A DNA stretch of 18,578 nt, taken from positions 1 to 18,578 of the forward strand of contig PALY01000147.1 in assembly GCA_002707085.1 (NCBI GenBank), in the 5' to 3' direction. Positions 7,638 through 18,578 of this stretch are shown in pieces; within the stretch, counting starts at the first letter, position 1; the number at the start of each line of letters is the position of its first letter. The stretch comes from Deltaproteobacteria bacterium (GTDB taxonomy: Bacteria; Myxococcota_A; UBA796). The notes below the pieces were generated by a model. That model ran no database searches and was not told where the DNA came from. It saw only the letters and a list, made by a program, of their open reading frames with translations. The translations under genes and the position numbers were made by a program.

Positions 7638-9560
7638 ATGAAACTCGCTGATTTACCCGCCTTGGCCCGTGACCTCTGGTGGACCACGGACACAGAAGCT
7701 CACCAATTGTGGCCCCGCATCGATGAAATGGCTTGGAAGAATAGCGGCCACAACCCCGTGGTGCTGCTGCGAAACACAGACTTAGAAGCGCTGGATGAAG
7801 ACCTGAAGGATGACCTAAGCAAATTGGTTGACCGTTGGCCTCGAAGCACCCGGAAAAGCCCACCGCCATCCAACAAGCGAATCGCATACTTCTGTATGGA
7901 ATTCGGGTTGCATGAAGGACTCAACATCTACTCGGGTGGCCTGGGAATGCTCGCTGGAGACCACCTCCGGAGCGCATCTGATCTGGGCTTGGACATGGTT
8001 GCAGTCGGACTCTTTTACCGGCGTGGTTACTTCCAACAAACCATCGAAGATGGGAAACAAGCGGTCCATTACCCAATCCAAGAAGCCAATGACTTGCCCG
8101 TAAGCCAAGTTCGCGGGCGCGATGGAACACCCATCCGGATTCGAGTTCCCAACGGTGAAGAAGAGTACGAAGCCACAGCATGGGAAGTTCGAGTAGGACA
8201 CATTCGCCTGTTTCTTCTCGACACCAACCTTCCGGAAAACCCAGAACACATTCGGAACCTCACCAGCAGCCTGTACGGCGGCGAAAAGGACATGCGTTTA
8301 CGCCAGGAAGTCTTGCTCGGGTTCGGAGGGAAAAATCTACTGGACGCCCTGGGCATCCGCCGAGACATCTTCCACATGAACGAAGGACACGTTTCCTTCT
8401 TGATTACAGCACTCATCACAGAAGCTGTCGCATTGGGAGTCCCTGTTTCCGATGCCTGGGAACAAGCAAAGGCCCGTTGTGTGTTCACAACCCACACACC
8501 CGTTCCCGCAGGACATGACCGTTTCGATGCACACCAAGTTCATGCCGTCCTCGGACCCACGTGCGAAGCGGCAGGACTCACCATTGAGGACTGGGCAGCA
8601 CCCGCCACCGTAGAAGGCAATCAGTTCTGTATGTCTACTTTGGGCATCAAAGGCAGTCGGTCCGTCAATGGAGTGAGCAAACTCCATGCTGAAGTCTCTC
8701 AAGGCATGTTCGACCATCTTGGCGTAAAGATCCGGCCCATCACCAATGGCGTCCATCAAACCGCTTGGATGGCCCCTGAAACCGCAGCATTGTTCGATAA
8801 GAAACTGCCTGGCTGGCGAGACAACATCAGCAACACCGAGTTTTGGCAGCAAACAGATCTGCTCACCACAGAAGAACTCATTTCGTTGCGAAACACCCTA
8901 CGAAGTCGCCTGATCAACAAGATTCGCACCCACTTGGGCCAACCCGACATCTTGGATGAAAACCTGCTGACCATCGGCTTTGCTCGACGGTTTGCCACAT
9001 ACAAGAGAGCCGACCTTATTTTCACCCAACCCGACCGTCTTGCAGCGATTTTGGATCGAGGCGCCCAGCTTGTATTTGCTGGAAAAGCTCACCCCAAAGA
9101 CATTCCAGGACAAGCACTGATCGAACAAGTGATTCGGTGGAGCCAGGATGACCGTTTCAAAGGTCGGGTCGTCTTTGTGCCCGGCTACGATCCCGACTGG
9201 GGTCGCATGTTCACACAAGGGTCCGACGTGTGGCTGAACAACCCGCGCCGGCCACGAGAAGCCAGTGGAACAAGCGGCCAAAAGGCGACACTCAATGGAA
9301 ACCCCAACCTATCCGTGCTGGATGGATGGTGGCCCGAAATCGCAGATGAGCAAAATGGCTGGTCCATTCAAGGCACCAGCGACGTAGAAGATGTGTTGGA
9401 ACTGTACTCCCTGCTTGAAAACAGTGTCTTGCCACGATTCGCTGACCCTGAAGCATGGGCGGCCATGATGCGTCACGTAATTTCTACCTGTTTGCCAATG
9501 TTCAATACGGAGCGAATGATTTTGGACTACTGCAATCACGTGTACGACCCCGAAACGTGA
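7638..9560 (+). CDS. Alpha-glucan (glycogen) phosphorylase, short form with DUF3417 N-terminus
   Basis: A GT35-family phosphorylase that releases glucose-1-phosphate from alpha-1,4-glucans. The N-terminus (LARDLWWTTDTEAHQLWPRI) matches the DUF3417 segment typical of the alternative bacterial glucan phosphorylases. Catalytic-domain landmarks follow in order: AYFCMEFGLHEGLNIYSGGL, FHMNEGHVSFL, ITNGVHQTAWMAPE, FATYKRADL and EASGTSGQKATLNG, with Lys549 as the PLP-binding lysine, then LSVLDGWWPE. At 640 residues it is shorter than classical enzymes of 800 or more residues; it ends soon after the PLP domain, so the C-terminal extension seen in mycobacterial-type relatives is absent. An AGGT lies 6 bases before ATG 7638. 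Its stop overlaps the GTG start of the helicase gene, so the two are probably translationally coupled. glgP or malP could be used as a symbol, but I leave it open. Confidence 0.94.
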   Translation: MKLADLPALARDLWWTTDTEAHQLWPRIDEMAWKNSGHNPVVLLRNTDLEALDEDLKDDLSKLVDRWPRSTRKSPPPSNKRIAYFCMEFGLHEGLNIYSGGLGMLAGDHLRSASDLGLDMVAVGLFYRRGYFQQTIEDGKQAVHYPIQEANDLPVSQVRGRDGTPIRIRVPNGEEEYEATAWEVRVGHIRLFLLDTNLPENPEHIRNLTSSLYGGEKDMRLRQEVLLGFGGKNLLDALGIRRDIFHMNEGHVSFLITALITEAVALGVPVSDAWEQAKARCVFTTHTPVPAGHDRFDAHQVHAVLGPTCEAAGLTIEDWAAPATVEGNQFCMSTLGIKGSRSVNGVSKLHAEVSQGMFDHLGVKIRPITNGVHQTAWMAPETAALFDKKLPGWRDNISNTEFWQQTDLLTTEELISLRNTLRSRLINKIRTHLGQPDILDENLLTIGFARRFATYKRADLIFTQPDRLAAILDRGAQLVFAGKAHPKDIPGQALIEQVIRWSQDDRFKGRVVFVPGYDPDWGRMFTQGSDVWLNNPRRPREASGTSGQKATLNGNPNLSVLDGWWPEIADEQNGWSIQGTSDVEDVLELYSLLENSVLPRFADPEAWAAMMRHVISTCLPMFNTERMILDYCNHVYDPET

Positions 9561-12025
9561 AAACCCGCTTTTCACCGGAAGCCGCAGAAAAGCTGCGGGA
9601 TGCAATCCGTGAAGCCGGTGGAATAGAAGTCTTTGCAATTGGTCGAATGGGAATCGACCAATACGTTGCTGACCTGGATGTCCATTGCAGAGGCACAATG
9701 GACGCGGTGCCTGCGAGCCTCCGCAAACCGAAACCCGGCGAGGTGGTGATCCACAATCATCCGTCTGGCGTCGTTCAGGCCAGCCCTGCCGACATGCAAC
9801 TTGCCCAACTGTATGGTGACGATGGGATTGGCGTTGTGATCGTCGATAACGATGTTCGCAAAGCCCTGTGGGTCGTCGAACCCATGGTCCGAAAAGTGTC
9901 ACACCTTGACCCAGAGGACGTGCGCTCGTTTTTTACCGAACGCCTTCCATCCGTCATTCCTGGATACGAACAAAGAGATGGCCAACTCCAGATGGCCATG
10001 GATGTGGCCCATGCATTCAACGAAGGAGACGTTGCGCTGCTGGAAGCTGGAACCGGCACCGGCAAGTCTTTGGCCTATCTGGTCCCTGCCGCCCTGTGGG
10101 CCAAACAAAATGACGCACGGGTCGCAGTCAGCACATTTACCATCGCACTGCAGGGACAACTCATGCAGTCTGACCTGCCTCTCCTCAAACGGGCAGGACT
10201 CGACATTCGCTACGCCGCCATGATGGGAAGGCACAACTACTTGTGTCGCAGAAAACTGGGGATCGCAGAAGCAGACCCTGGCACCGGGTCAGAAGCGAAT
10301 GCTGTGAAACACATTGCGGACTGGGCCAGAACATCACCAGACGGCACACGGGCCGATCTGGCGTTTCCATTGGACGAAGAAGACTGGGATCGGGTCGCTT
10401 CTGACCCAGACCAAACCCTTCGCGTTCGCTGCCAACACTACGACAAGTGTTTCTACTATGAAGCCCGCCGTGCAGCCGCGGATGCGCAAATCATCGTTGT
10501 AAATCACAATCTATTGCTGGCCGATTTGAACACCAAATACGACACTGGAGGGGTCGGTACGCTTCCTCGGTACGACCGCATCGTCCTCGATGAAGGCCAC
10601 CACTTGGAAGATGCAGCGACACTGCTGTTTGAAGACCGCATCGGCGTGGAAGGTATCCGACGCAGCGTGCGAAGCCTGCTGCCCAGAAAACGAGACCGGT
10701 TCGGCACCTTGGCCAAAGTCAGAAACAAATATCTGAGCGGCACAGGCCCCCTGATCGCCGCTGATGTCGCAGCAGCATTGCCTCATCTTGAAAAGCTGGA
10801 AACTGCCGCCCAAACATTGATGGAAGATGTCCCCATGTGGATGGAGACCATTGCAGACGATGCACACCTACAGAAACTGGGCGATGTACGAACGACCGAA
10901 GATTACCGTGAAGGCCCTGTGTGGAACGAAGCCCTCGTTCCCACAATTCGGACAATCTCGCGCTCACTCCGAGAAGCCATCAAACCGCTGGATGATCTGC
11001 TCACCGTATTGGAGTCTTTGCCAGACGAGGTTCGCACCAAAGATGCACAACTGCTTTTCGATCTAAGTCGCGCCCGAAGACGGTTGGGCGCAAAGGCCAC
11101 ATCTTGTGCCAACTTTCAAGGAGCCGACAACGAATGGGTGTCGTGGCTTTCCATCGATCGTGGGCGTCGGTCCACCCCAACCGCCAGAATGTGCATGGCA
11201 CCCATCGATGTGGGTCCATTGCTGCGAGAACGCGTGTTTGAAGCCACCCAAGCATCGGTGGTGACCTCCGCCACACTGACCGTTGCCAAACAATTCGACC
11301 ACCTGCGCTCGCGCATCGGACTGACCGAATGCACAAGAGTGCGAACACAGAAGTTCGACTCGCCTTTTGACTACAGACGACAAGCCTTGCTTGCGATTCC
11401 TCGAGACATCCCGCCCCCCAACGAACCCGATTTTGAAAACCGAATTGCAGAAGTCATCATCGATGCCATCCGTGCCAGCGATGGAGGCACCTTTGTGCTG
11501 TGTACCAGCTACGCACTGATCGACACACTGCACAGCAAAGCCACAGAAGCATTGGGCGATGATTTTCCCCTACTAAAACAAGGCCAGATGGGCCGGATGC
11601 ATCTACTCCAACAATTTAAAGAAAACCGCAGAAGCGTGCTGTTTGGCACCGATTCCTTTTGGGAAGGCATCGATGTAAAGGGAGACCAACTCCGCTTGGT
11701 GATCATCCCAAGGCTTCCTTTCCGGGTTCCGACAGAACCCATTCAACAAGCCCGCTTTGAACGTTTAAAAGCCCAAGGGCTTGACCCCTTCCGGGCATAT
11801 TCTCTGCCCCAAGCTGTTCTTCGTTTCCGACAAGGATTTGGACGATTGATTCGGACACAGAAAGACAAAGGTGTCGTACTGCTTCTTGATCGCCGCGTCA
11901 CCAATCATTCCTACGGCCGTGTTTTTCTCGCTTCCCTTCCAGATGTACTTCGAGCCCAAGGCCCAGCAAAAGTCATCTTGATGCGCGTCCGGTCCGCCAC
12001 AGGCCAAAAAGCTGAAACCACATAG
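9557..12025 (+). CDS. DinG-family helicase with N-terminal RadC/JAB-like JAMM domain
   Basis: An 822-residue fusion. Residues 20-100 form a JAB/RadC-like domain with a full JAMM set: Glu24, His66-Asn-His68, Ser76 and Asp79 (HNHPSG, then x4-S-x2-D). Residues 135-822 are an XPD/DinG-type superfamily 2 helicase: a GYEQRDGQLQM entry motif, Walker A EAGTGTGKS (Lys170), Walker B as DEGH (345-348, where DEAH is usual), GTDSFWEGIDVKG, and the final QGFGRLIRTQKDKG (from about 759). Fe-S-type cysteines are Cys230, Cys292 and Cys298; the position of the expected fourth is Thr287. I start it at GTG 9557, whose GTGA overlaps the phosphorylase TGA. ATG 9455 would add 34 residues that read as an out-of-frame copy of the phosphorylase end. 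It probably acts on DNA in repair or replication; whether the JAMM domain cuts isopeptides or is structural is unknown. Confidence 0.93.
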   Translation: MKTRFSPEAAEKLRDAIREAGGIEVFAIGRMGIDQYVADLDVHCRGTMDAVPASLRKPKPGEVVIHNHPSGVVQASPADMQLAQLYGDDGIGVVIVDNDVRKALWVVEPMVRKVSHLDPEDVRSFFTERLPSVIPGYEQRDGQLQMAMDVAHAFNEGDVALLEAGTGTGKSLAYLVPAALWAKQNDARVAVSTFTIALQGQLMQSDLPLLKRAGLDIRYAAMMGRHNYLCRRKLGIAEADPGTGSEANAVKHIADWARTSPDGTRADLAFPLDEEDWDRVASDPDQTLRVRCQHYDKCFYYEARRAAADAQIIVVNHNLLLADLNTKYDTGGVGTLPRYDRIVLDEGHHLEDAATLLFEDRIGVEGIRRSVRSLLPRKRDRFGTLAKVRNKYLSGTGPLIAADVAAALPHLEKLETAAQTLMEDVPMWMETIADDAHLQKLGDVRTTEDYREGPVWNEALVPTIRTISRSLREAIKPLDDLLTVLESLPDEVRTKDAQLLFDLSRARRRLGAKATSCANFQGADNEWVSWLSIDRGRRSTPTARMCMAPIDVGPLLRERVFEATQASVVTSATLTVAKQFDHLRSRIGLTECTRVRTQKFDSPFDYRRQALLAIPRDIPPPNEPDFENRIAEVIIDAIRASDGGTFVLCTSYALIDTLHSKATEALGDDFPLLKQGQMGRMHLLQQFKENRRSVLFGTDSFWEGIDVKGDQLRLVIIPRLPFRVPTEPIQQARFERLKAQGLDPFRAYSLPQAVLRFRQGFGRLIRTQKDKGVVLLLDRRVTNHSYGRVFLASLPDVLRAQGPAKVILMRVRSATGQKAETT

Positions 12026-12240: not shown

Positions 12241-12388
12241 GCAAACAGTAGCCGTCAGCACAAAACGACAAAAAATCTAAACTTTCTCGCTTCGGTGTGA
12301 AACTTCTTTGCGCAGGCTCCCTTGATGTGGTGTGGGACTGAGACTTCAGCCCAACTCAAATGACAAACGCATGAAGAGGAGACACATC

Positions 12389-13582
12389 ATGACAACCGCT
12401 CATACATTCTTTCTGTTGGGAACATTTTCAATGCTCGTCGCTTGCGGCGACAAAGACGACAGTGTTTCTGACGACGCCAACAACGAACTTTCAACCGACG
12501 ACACCGGTGAAGCCGATGCAGACGCTGATGCTGACGCAGACGCAGACGCAGACGCAGACGCTGATTCCGATGCGGATGCAGATGCGGATGCGGATGCGGA
12601 CGACACGGGAATGGAAGACACGGGAATGGAAGACACAGGTGGGTCCTCCATCGACGTTCAAGAACCTCCAGCACCGGCTGATTTCGATGTCTTGTCAGAT
12701 GATGCCCGTGAAGACATCACACAGGTCTTCACCATGGATGCCAGTGAATACAGCAACTTCATTGCTGAACAAGGCAGTACGCTGTCCTTCTCTCCAAACA
12801 GCTTTTCTCTTCGCGACGGAAGCCTTGCAAGCGGAGACGTCGAAATCGAGTTTATCGAGATCTTCGACAAAGGAACGATGCTGATCACAGACACGCCCAC
12901 CATCGGCAGATCGTCGACTGGAGAGGTGGCTCAACTCATCTCTGGCGGTGAACATTACGTCGGTGCCAGCCAAGATGGTGTGCCGCTTCAGATGAACAGC
13001 ACCTTCCAACTAACTGCACCCGCAGACGCTACCGGCGGTCCCGACACAGCCATGGGACTCTTTAAGCCTGAAGGTGCCGACGGAATGGCTGACATGGACG
13101 ATGACGTTCTGTGGCGTGAAGCTGGAGATGAAGACGAAGATATGTTTGGCATCGGTCGAGGAGATGCCGATACCGGTGGTGGTGCCAGCTCATACTGGAT
13201 GAATTTGGGTGATTTTGGCTGGACCAACATCGACCGTTGGTACTCCGATCCACGCCCCAAAACGACCATCCACGTCGATGTACCCGATGGCTGGGACAAC
13301 GATAACAGTACCGTCTACCTTTCCTATGACGGCGAACCTACAGCGCTCGCTCGCTTGGACACCTACGACGAAAGCACCGAGTTGTTCAGCGAACACTACG
13401 GCCTGATTCCCATCGGACTGGAAGTACACATCATCTTCGTGACTGAATCTGAAGGAGAATGGAGCTACGCCATCCAAGGAACAACGATCGTGGAAGACCA
13501 CCTCACGACCTTCGCAACAGCCGACGATTTCGTGGAAACTGACGCCCAGGGAATGGCGGACGCCATCAACGCCCTTCCATAA
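12389..13582 (+). CDS. Surface lipoprotein with Asp-Ala linker and beta-rich ectodomain
   Basis: A 397-residue lipoprotein. ATG 12389 has GAGGAG about 7 bases upstream; the in-frame ATGs at 12332 and 12371 are less likely because the Shine-Dalgarno lies between 12371 and the chosen start. The signal ends Met-Leu-Val-Ala-Cys, a textbook lipobox with Cys19. Residues 42-71 are an Asp-Ala repeat with one Ser, then Asp-Thr-Gly-Met-Glu repeats. The ectodomain (about 85-397) shows a block like SPNSFSLRDGSLASGDVEIE followed by IEIFDKGTMLITDTPT, and later a GDFGWTNIDRWY motif. From memory these resemble cell-surface proteins of Bacteroidota that carry GWINCDRF-like motifs; I cannot name a Pfam family. 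It is followed by a strong terminator. A 148-base leader upstream holds no other recognisable element. Confidence 0.9.
   Translation: MTTAHTFFLLGTFSMLVACGDKDDSVSDDANNELSTDDTGEADADADADADADADADADSDADADADADADDTGMEDTGMEDTGGSSIDVQEPPAPADFDVLSDDAREDITQVFTMDASEYSNFIAEQGSTLSFSPNSFSLRDGSLASGDVEIEFIEIFDKGTMLITDTPTIGRSSTGEVAQLISGGEHYVGASQDGVPLQMNSTFQLTAPADATGGPDTAMGLFKPEGADGMADMDDDVLWREAGDEDEDMFGIGRGDADTGGGASSYWMNLGDFGWTNIDRWYSDPRPKTTIHVDVPDGWDNDNSTVYLSYDGEPTALARLDTYDESTELFSEHYGLIPIGLEVHIIFVTESEGEWSYAIQGTTIVEDHLTTFATADDFVETDAQGMADAINALP
12512..12601 (+). repeat. Asp-Ala coding hexanucleotide repeat (locus 3)
   Basis: About 30 codons of alternating Ala and Asp (GCN-GAY), interrupted once by Ser. Two codon blocks can be seen: a GAC GCA-rich 5-prime part and a GAT GCG-rich 3-prime part, suggesting local expansion of two unit types. 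The linker lies between the lipidated Cys19 and the folded domain. Confidence 0.9.
12603..12640 (+). repeat. 15-base tandem repeat encoding Asp-Thr-Gly-Met-Glu units
   Basis: Two and a half copies of a 15-base unit read GACACGGGAATGGAA and encode Asp-Thr-Gly-Met-Glu directly after the Asp-Ala linker. The third copy is partial and diverged (ACAGGT). It extends the flexible stalk of the lipoprotein. Confidence 0.75.
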
Positions 13583-13603
13583 ACCGAATGTTCTACGGAC
13601 CCT

Positions 13604-13650
13604 ACCCGGGGTTGGCACCATCCAAAAGGTTGCCGACCCCGGGTTTCTCT
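13604..13650 (+). terminator. Intrinsic terminator after the 12389-13582 lipoprotein gene
   Basis: A 13-bp stem (13605-13617 with 13631-13643, CCCGGGGTTGGCA against TGCCGACCCCGGG, one G-T wobble) with a 13-base loop is followed by TTTCTCT. It starts 22 bases after the stop codon and separates this gene from the 111-residue protein gene. Confidence 0.9.
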
Positions 13651-13713
13651 ATGGGATGTACCCATGACACAGCCCATGGTGTGATACGAATACGAAACAA
13701 GGAGGCTTCAGCC

Positions 13714-14049
13714 ATGAGTTGGGATCGAACCTGGGGTTTCAAAAAGCGTGGACTCAAACTGAACGACGTCACACAGGCCGCTACCGCCATCGCTGGCAAC
13801 TATGCTGAAGTCAAAGTGACCGTAGAGAAAGAGAGTGACGACTGCATCACGTGTTTCTTCGAAACCCCCATCGAAGAAGGCAGTGAACATACACATACGC
13901 TGGAAGTCTCCATCTACGACATGGGCAGTTCCGGACACGTGATCAGCCTGGAAGCTGATGCAGCAGACAATGATGCGGCATGGGATGATGCCAGCCAACT
14001 CACCGAAGACTTGGCCGATGCTTTTGAAGCAAACCCACTGGAGTTGTGA
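13714..14049 (+). CDS. Small acidic soluble protein of unknown function (111 aa)
   Basis: The start is fixed by a strong AAGGAGG 8 bases before ATG 13714; the longer frame from 13588 crosses the terminator stem and is not credible. The protein starts Met-Ser-Trp-Asp-Arg-Thr-Trp, has a basic N-terminal 20 residues (GFKKRGLKLNDV) and an acidic rest. Two cysteines sit close together in DDCITCFFE, a CxxC-like pair (Cys-Ile-Thr-Cys). There is no signal peptide or membrane segment, so it is cytoplasmic. Segments such as EVKVTVEK and HTLEVSIYDMG look like beta strands, and the C-terminus (DDASQLTEDLADAFEA) looks helical. I do not recognise a family and propose no function. The strong ribosome site suggests appreciable expression. 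It is not obviously linked to either neighbour. Confidence 0.85.
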   Translation: MSWDRTWGFKKRGLKLNDVTQAATAIAGNYAEVKVTVEKESDDCITCFFETPIEEGSEHTHTLEVSIYDMGSSGHVISLEADAADNDAAWDDASQLTEDLADAFEANPLEL

Positions 14050-17718: not shown

Positions 17719-18578
17719 TCAGCCCGGCAGCAGGCCTTTCAGTCCGCCTTTGGACCGTTGCTGTACTGGGCGTCGCCAAATCAAACGCTGACCTGCCGCT
17801 CGGCCAGACTTCCACGCATCCGTCATTTGCATGCGGTTGCGTCTACCGGCACGCAGTGTGGGGTGACGACCCTTCACCCAAGAATCCAGGCCTGCGTCGC
17901 CTACCCAAACAAGGCCGGTCTCCTCGCAGACCTTTGCCTCCCCTTCAAGCTTTTCGTGAAAGCCAATCATGACACCTTGCAGATAACGACGCCGTTCCTT
18001 GTTCTTGGTGATGCCATGAGTACGTTTATGGGACTTCCATAAACGTTCGCTGGTATCCAACAAAAAGCGATGCACATGCTCTGCAATCTTCAGATTTTCC
18101 GGACGACCACAGAGTTCCAACACCCGACCACGCGCATCTGAAACTGGGTCATATGCAACAACCCAGATCGGATGAACAAAGAAATGGGCGCCTAAAATAC
18201 CCGCCAAAATCCGCTCATGTGCCGTATTTCGCTTGCGTACAGTACCCACCTGCAAAAACTGAAAATGGTCGTCTTTGTGAAGTTCGGCGGCACGAATATT
18301 GTGTTTGCGCATCAGACGATGTGCAGCATTCATGGCCGCTTGCGCTTCATGGCGATTGTCGGAATCAGCCAACCCCAACAGCCCCTCTACCTTGCGTAAA
18401 ACCCGCTCTGCGTTGGGATCAGCAACGGGCATTCCTCTGGCCCGACCATCAATCGAACGTTCTTCACAAACACGCTGAAAGGCGGGTCCATGAGCCGTTT
18501 CATCTTTGATCTGTAAAACCTCATCAACGTACTGATGTGCCATTTCATGTCGCAACACCTCAATCACGACGGTCCATG
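17719..18578 (-). CDS. SprT-like zinc metallopeptidase-like / DUF2786 protein, cut by right edge
   Basis: The frame is open to the window end (Trp-Thr-Val-Val before the GTG at 18567), so the N-terminus is missing and I do not accept GTG 18567 as the start. The first visible segment, LRHEMAHQYVDE, contains a HExxH zinc-protease motif, and HGPAF 15 residues after it supplies the third His ligand, as in SprT-like domains. About 25 residues later a segment like ERVLRKVEGLLGLADSD...HEAQAAMNAA matches DUF2786, and a C-terminal basic tail (Arg/Lys-rich) follows. SprT-like proteins act on DNA-protein crosslinks in eukaryotes; for bacterial SprT/DUF2786 proteins the role is not established. It converges on the propeller lipoprotein gene with only 7 bases between stops. 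At least 282 residues are in the window. Confidence 0.9.
   Translation of the reverse strand, partial: WTVVIEVLRHEMAHQYVDEVLQIKDETAHGPAFQRVCEERSIDGRARGMPVADPNAERVLRKVEGLLGLADSDNRHEAQAAMNAAHRLMRKHNIRAAELHKDDHFQFLQVGTVRKRNTAHERILAGILGAHFFVHPIWVVAYDPVSDARGRVLELCGRPENLKIAEHVHRFLLDTSERLWKSHKRTHGITKNKERRRYLQGVMIGFHEKLEGEAKVCEETGLVWVGDAGLDSWVKGRHPTLRAGRRNRMQMTDAWKSGRAAGQRLIWRRPVQQRSKGGLKGLLPG

Follow-up and report, generated by a model that had tools for sequence, protein, structure and literature searches.

A single 822-residue chain, encoded in the 18,578-nucleotide stretch of DNA analysed here (the window), joins an N-terminal RadC-like JAB/JAMM domain to a helicase of the DinG/YoaA/XPD type, and in the class to which it belongs one ligand position of the iron-sulfur (Fe-S) domain has changed from cysteine to threonine. 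This clade-wide change is what the present analysis adds. The architecture was considered as a novelty and rejected as such, being described both by Cheng in 2025 under the name RadC-like DinG (PMC11981726) and in a 2017 paper (PMC5512222), where the fusion is cited. The first-pass annotation of this DNA had suspected that an existing description might have escaped it, and was correct; a literature search with the phrase 'RadC-like DinG' returned Cheng's paper alone, which states that no research has been done on the protein so far. The best explanation, given about an even chance of being right, is a helicase of the XPD/DinG family whose own chain includes a RadC-clade metal hydrolase that would act most likely on nucleic acid. 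What RadC-type JAMM domains do becomes testable with such a fusion, since almost all genomes sampled from one order carry it and it couples an invariant JAMM site to a helicase whose biochemistry is known.

The gene and its surroundings

The gene occupies positions 9557..12025 of the plus strand, as do all of the protein features given below, and is supported by a frame free of internal stops, by Pfam and NCBIfam matches, and by homologues. Of two possible starts, the GTG at 9557 was favoured over an ATG at 9455, since it overlaps the stop codon of the gene upstream by four bases and is also where the closest homologues begin. The upstream gene (7638-9560, plus strand) is glycogen-phosphorylase-like with a DUF3417 region, and a gene of this kind immediately precedes the fusion in five of the 20 loci that were fetched (L144, L146, L149, L150, L161). 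Downstream, two open frames of 416 and 153 residues (12332-14049, plus strand) have no Pfam match, and a search of 19 related loci with a threshold of E 1e-5 gave no counterpart of either. At the far end (17719-18567, minus strand) lies a DUF2786/DUF7168 protein, cut by the contig end, the start of which shows a SprT-like match just below the cut-off. Full copies of this protein, with an HExxH motif, follow the RadC-DinG gene immediately and convergently in loci L145 and L146, in this genus only; counted over the 20 fetched loci, a SprT-like/DUF2786 gene is near the fusion in three, all of one genus. Gene neighbours were dropped as a clue to function, no repair context being seen across these 20 loci. 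A second DinG-like helicase of about 800-850 residues is encoded in the window's own genome (L141, contig C123) and in two others (L142, L143). It has an N-terminal stretch with an EVK/EIK motif and, by eye, looks like the EndoDinG (PD-(D/E)XK) type of Cheng.

The N-terminal RadC-like domain

The RadC-like domain covers about residues 1-112 (9557..9892). The first-pass annotation had placed a RadC-type JAMM domain ahead of a DinG helicase, and this identity was upheld. Glu24 (9626..9628), the predicted acid-base residue, and His66-Asn-His68, Ser76 and Asp79 (9752..9793), the predicted metal site, stand exactly where they had been claimed, with the JAMM spacing H-x7-S-x2-D and the HNHPSG core. 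A Pfam search, proposed at the same time, detected Helicase_C_2, DEAD and DEAD_2, whereas RadC (PF04002) reached 16.7 bits over residues 63-84, below its cut-off of 22.1, a threshold that many sister fusion proteins pass. The first 135 residues gave a weak sequence match to the RadC structure 2qlc (E 0.0048, residues 51-87). When the profile of the domain was compared by hhalign with free RadC, represented by seven sequences from relatives (an eighth, L099, had no usable frame), the match was 96.6% (E 4.9e-10, 82 columns, no negative control), and Glu24 was aligned on a Glu of RadC.

Conservation of the five JAMM residues is complete in both alignments compared. With residues 1-135 as query, 145 proteins were matched, and among the 120 matches listed E24, H66, N67, H68, S76 and D79 are invariant. 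Just 12 columns out of the first 112 show no variation in this set, and the five JAMM residues all fall within these 12; the probability of this by chance is about 6e-6. An enlarged alignment was assembled from the 120 listed homologues, 80 loci from contig searches, E. coli DinG, and sequences from the order (48), the class (two), and the phylum (one). From it, 191 rows were selected solely on the similarity of their first domain; over the last 600 residues, 184 of these rows are distinct. Removal of L062, a helicase without the RadC-like domain, left 190 domain carriers. All five JAMM residues are present in 190 of 190, and no decayed copy was seen; among the loci inspected, absence of the domain within the group coincided with a contig end (L016, L125, L127).

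This constancy bears on the reading, judged improbable, that the site is not hydrolytic and that the domain, stabilised by a metal, steers the helicase by docking or by binding DNA. Scaffolding is a common role of MPN domains, but those that serve it typically lose residues of the catalytic type, and here all of them, including the Glu and the Ser, are kept. It agrees with the docking reading that no enzyme activity of RadC is given in the passages drawn on from PMC5512222, PMC11981726, and PMC300881.

Between the two histidines, 189 of the 190 domain carriers have Asn and one (L126) has Asp. The strict JAMM/MPN+ motif, E-xn-H-S/T-H-x7-S-x2-D, is thus reproduced in its spacing, but with Asn in place of Ser/Thr; in distant JAMM relatives either Thr or Asn is described at this place (PMC300881). 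In an AlphaFold2 model built with 77 sequences (mean pLDDT 94.3, pTM 0.90), the order of helices and strands is consistent with the domain assignment: strand 62-68 ends in H66 and H68, with S76 and D79 placed where helix 77-87 begins. A model of the N-terminal domain alone, made from the single sequence without an alignment, reached a pLDDT of 34.5 and was set aside. Fold searches with the full model returned only helicases, with matches from residue 114 onward, and so did not cover this domain.

The helicase and its Fe-S domain

Residues 114-812 (9896..11992) form the helicase, as indicated by Pfam, NCBIfam, alignment to E. coli DinG, and the fold searches. Helicase_C_2 scored 156 bits at residues 635-795, with DEAD and DEAD_2 ahead of it; the best NCBIfam models were YoaA (541 bits, cut-off 680) and DinG (484 bits, cut-off 789), both below their cut-offs; and the sequence match to E. 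coli DinG (6fwr) had an E value of 4.1e-54. Within these coordinates lie Walker A (165-171), DEGH (345-348), and motif VI (759-766), and the Walker A Lys, Asp345 and Glu346 are conserved in 189 of 189 rows. A C-terminal helix of the second motor domain, residues 804-814 (11966..11998; DSSP of the model), may be the counterpart of helix alpha7, which Cheng describes for YoaA and RadC-like DinG (PMC11981726). The earlier description of a complete DinG helicase holds for the motor motifs, which are intact, but not for the Fe-S domain, where a threonine stands in for one cysteine of the four.

By homologue alignment, the Fe-S ligand positions are Cys230 (10244..10246; C120 of E. coli DinG), Thr287 (10415..10417; C194), and Cys292 and Cys298 (10430..10450; C199 and C205). 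The window protein thus lacks the four cysteines of a [4Fe-4S] XPD/DinG domain, and with three cysteines and Thr287 it falls within Cheng's own definition, in which an Fe-S domain has three or four. Position 287 is Thr in 90, Cys in 29, and Ser in one of the 120 listed homologues, and over the four positions the 190 domain carriers read CTCC in 138, CSCC in two, and CCCC in 50, while Cys230, Cys292 and Cys298 never vary in either set (120/120 and 190/190). Within the order, 53 genomes besides the window's gave a match to the protein and 48 could be read at the ligand sites (five fragmentary ones, G008, G020, G027, G048, and G055, were left out): 44 are CTCC, three CSCC (two of these with an incomplete gene), and one CCCC (L094). 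Both genomes of the class from outside the order are CTCC, the one from elsewhere in the phylum (G081) and E. coli are CCCC, and loci without the RadC-like domain are nearly all CCCC, with one CCNC (L027).

FastTree (104 rows of the family, 10 of the outgroup) and IQ-TREE in quick mode (45 and five) were run with the ligand column masked. Both trees require two changes, a replacement of Cys by Thr/Ser and a single reversion, in L094, and the branch carrying the first has a support of 96 (FastTree) and 99.4 (IQ-TREE). On these sequence data, the change at ligand 2 arose once and has been kept across the class. A hydroxyl residue of single origin at an Fe-S ligand, spread class-wide, amounts to a natural experiment on the fourth ligand in XPD-family helicases.

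The cluster itself was probably retained, because none of the three cysteines ever varies and only Thr, Ser, or Cys occurs at the remaining ligand position; the former point in particular argues against cluster loss. A retained cluster, with a Thr/Ser oxygen at the fourth site or with that site open, is given a little more than an even chance. The possibility that another cysteine has taken over from the lost ligand was rejected: from residue 215 to residue 530, the Thr/Ser rows show no enrichment in any Cys column. Thr287 could alternatively mark a weakened or zinc-binding domain. The fuller form of this alternative, in which the cluster is lost and the domain either binds zinc or takes His294 as the fourth ligand, is considered rather unlikely. 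It draws on the enrichment of His294 in the Thr/Ser rows of the 190 domain carriers (129 of 140, versus 12 of 50 Cys rows), although the other 11 Thr/Ser rows lack this histidine and yet keep the hydroxyl, and L094, which has reverted to Cys, still has it. Two cysteines also accompany Thr287, namely Cys44 (95 of 140 versus 0 of 50) and Cys649 (131 of 140 versus 4 of 50), but both sit in other domains and Cys44 is missing from 45 of the 140, for which reason their co-occurrence with Thr287 is taken as shared ancestry. Zinc has been raised by Cheng for variant Fe-S domains (PMC11981726), and S. aureus DinG and CasDinG are functional without a cluster. The variant ligands that Cheng lists are His, Ser, and Asp; Thr does not appear among them in the main-text passages of PMC11981726. 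One narrow literature search found no paper on a threonine ligand of a 4Fe-4S cluster.

Distribution and evolutionary history

With the whole protein as query, 54 of the order's 58 genomes were matched, the window's included, some of them as contig fragments, which marks the fusion as a core rather than a mobile gene. A search across the phylum, suggested in the first-pass annotation, gave matches at E 1e-80 or better in 24 of the 111 genomes drawn. Besides the window's own genome and 20 from its order, these were two from the class and G081 from elsewhere in the phylum, for which the match starts at residue 130. Relatives among the matches listed include Deltaproteobacteria of UBA796 and UBA2957 (71-72%), and also the Planctomycetota Brocadia, Jettenia, and Kuenenia (36-39%). 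One fusion protein, P0041, on a contig of 1.95 Mb labelled Alphaproteobacteria, falls inside the Thr clade, and its placement reflects either transfer or a mislabelled bin. In the FastTree reconstruction two fusion rows (L017, L018), both with long or odd branches, fall among outgroup rows without the RadC-like domain, so that the fusion may have had more than one origin.

A separate RadC, away from the fusion, was found in 47 of the 58 genomes of the order (E 3.5e-23 or better; the control search gave matches in 8 of 14 named genomes). The idea that the fusion replaces free RadC was therefore rejected in general, these 47 genomes carrying both, and the fusion is not a simple substitute. All 47 are among the 55 genomes from outside the window's genus, eight of which lack a second RadC; in the three genomes of the genus itself (G000, G001, and G002; completeness 72, 80, and 90%), the fusion was the sole match to RadC. 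By these gene counts, replacement could have occurred in the window's genus and in the eight others. HolC was above the cut-off in none of the 58 genomes of the order, with one sub-threshold match (G031), in a search whose control matched 2 of 14 named genomes.

Proposed function

Under the preferred explanation, the protein would be a housekeeping repair enzyme. The helicase would load onto single-stranded DNA and move in the 5'-3' direction, unwinding blocked or crosslinked DNA and delivering it to the JAMM site, which would hydrolyse a bond in the nucleic acid. The JAMM domain would thereby occupy the place that an exonuclease or endonuclease takes in other DinG proteins, and the Fe-S domain of this class would probably keep its cluster, the fourth site being a Thr/Ser oxygen or open. 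The Aravind group inferred RadC to be a nuclease from gene context and from the missing tunnel for a ubiquitin-like tail (PMC3482391, PMC5512222), while the fold comparison by Cheng found metalloproteases and no nuclease (PMC11981726), so that the two published hints pull apart. The literature cited here, in the parts drawn on, describes no nuclease activity of any RadC, and in E. coli the sensitivity of radC mutants to DNA damage is reportedly normal (PMC11981726).

The metalloproteases in that comparison are among the points in favour of a peptidase, a reading considered unlikely, to much the same degree as the docking module. The helicase would meet and unfold a DNA-crosslinked protein and the JAMM domain would cut it or remove a modifier, so that one chain would do what FANCJ and SPRTN do as two. 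This gives specific form to the suggestion of the first-pass annotation that a protein or a modifier is taken off DNA, a suggestion that is possible at most. The JAMM spacing is intact, but Asn stands between the histidines where the classical isopeptidase motif has Ser/Thr, and the SprT-like neighbour is confined to one genus. Formaldehyde is linked to protein-DNA crosslinks. DinG mutants of S. aureus are sensitive to it (PMC12345164), the biochemically characterised JAB domains are peptidases (PMC5512222), and FANCJ, an XPD-family helicase, unfolds crosslinked proteins for SPRTN (PMC12279946); against this, the same absence of a tunnel for a ubiquitin-like tail is stated for the RadC clade (PMC3482391, PMC5512222). 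The most far-reaching proposal, and the least probable, combines this peptidase with the ligand change, as a one-chain machine for repair of protein-DNA crosslinks in which the helicase unfolds, the JAMM domain cuts, and the Fe-S domain is retuned by a cluster with three Cys and one Thr. If true, it would be a bacterial counterpart of FANCJ plus SPRTN with a retuned, redox-sensitive Fe-S domain.

Comparison with known systems

Returning to the preferred helicase and nucleic-acid hydrolase, the best functional parallel, by analogy, would be S. aureus DinG (ExoDinG), in which exonuclease and helicase are both required against mitomycin C and formaldehyde (PMC12345164). It belongs to the same helicase family and carries its hydrolase in the same N-terminal place, but this is a DEDDh exonuclease, and there is no Fe-S cluster, whereas the window protein has a JAMM domain and three invariant cysteines. 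FANCJ plus SPRTN of eukaryotes, an XPD-family helicase working with a metalloprotease, is alike in plan only, with two chains and a SprT-type protease in contrast to one chain and a JAMM domain. Free RadC (PF04002; 2qlc) shares the HNHPSG-x4-S-x2-D core and gave the profile match described above, but is not fused to a helicase, and the window's domain by itself scores below the Pfam RadC cut-off. For YoaA, HolC would be expected in the same genome, whereas the genomes of the order lack it and the NCBIfam YoaA score stays under its threshold. Further literature was also consulted (PMC4131540, PMC9826845, PMC10400533). The closest system is the RadC-like DinG of Cheng, with Desulfuromonas soudanensis as its model member, which has in common with the window protein the N-terminal RadC-like domain with conserved E, H, H, and D, a YoaA-like helicase, and genomes free of HolC (PMC11981726); the window protein differs from it in the threonine at Fe-S ligand 2, where the variants listed by Cheng are those already named.
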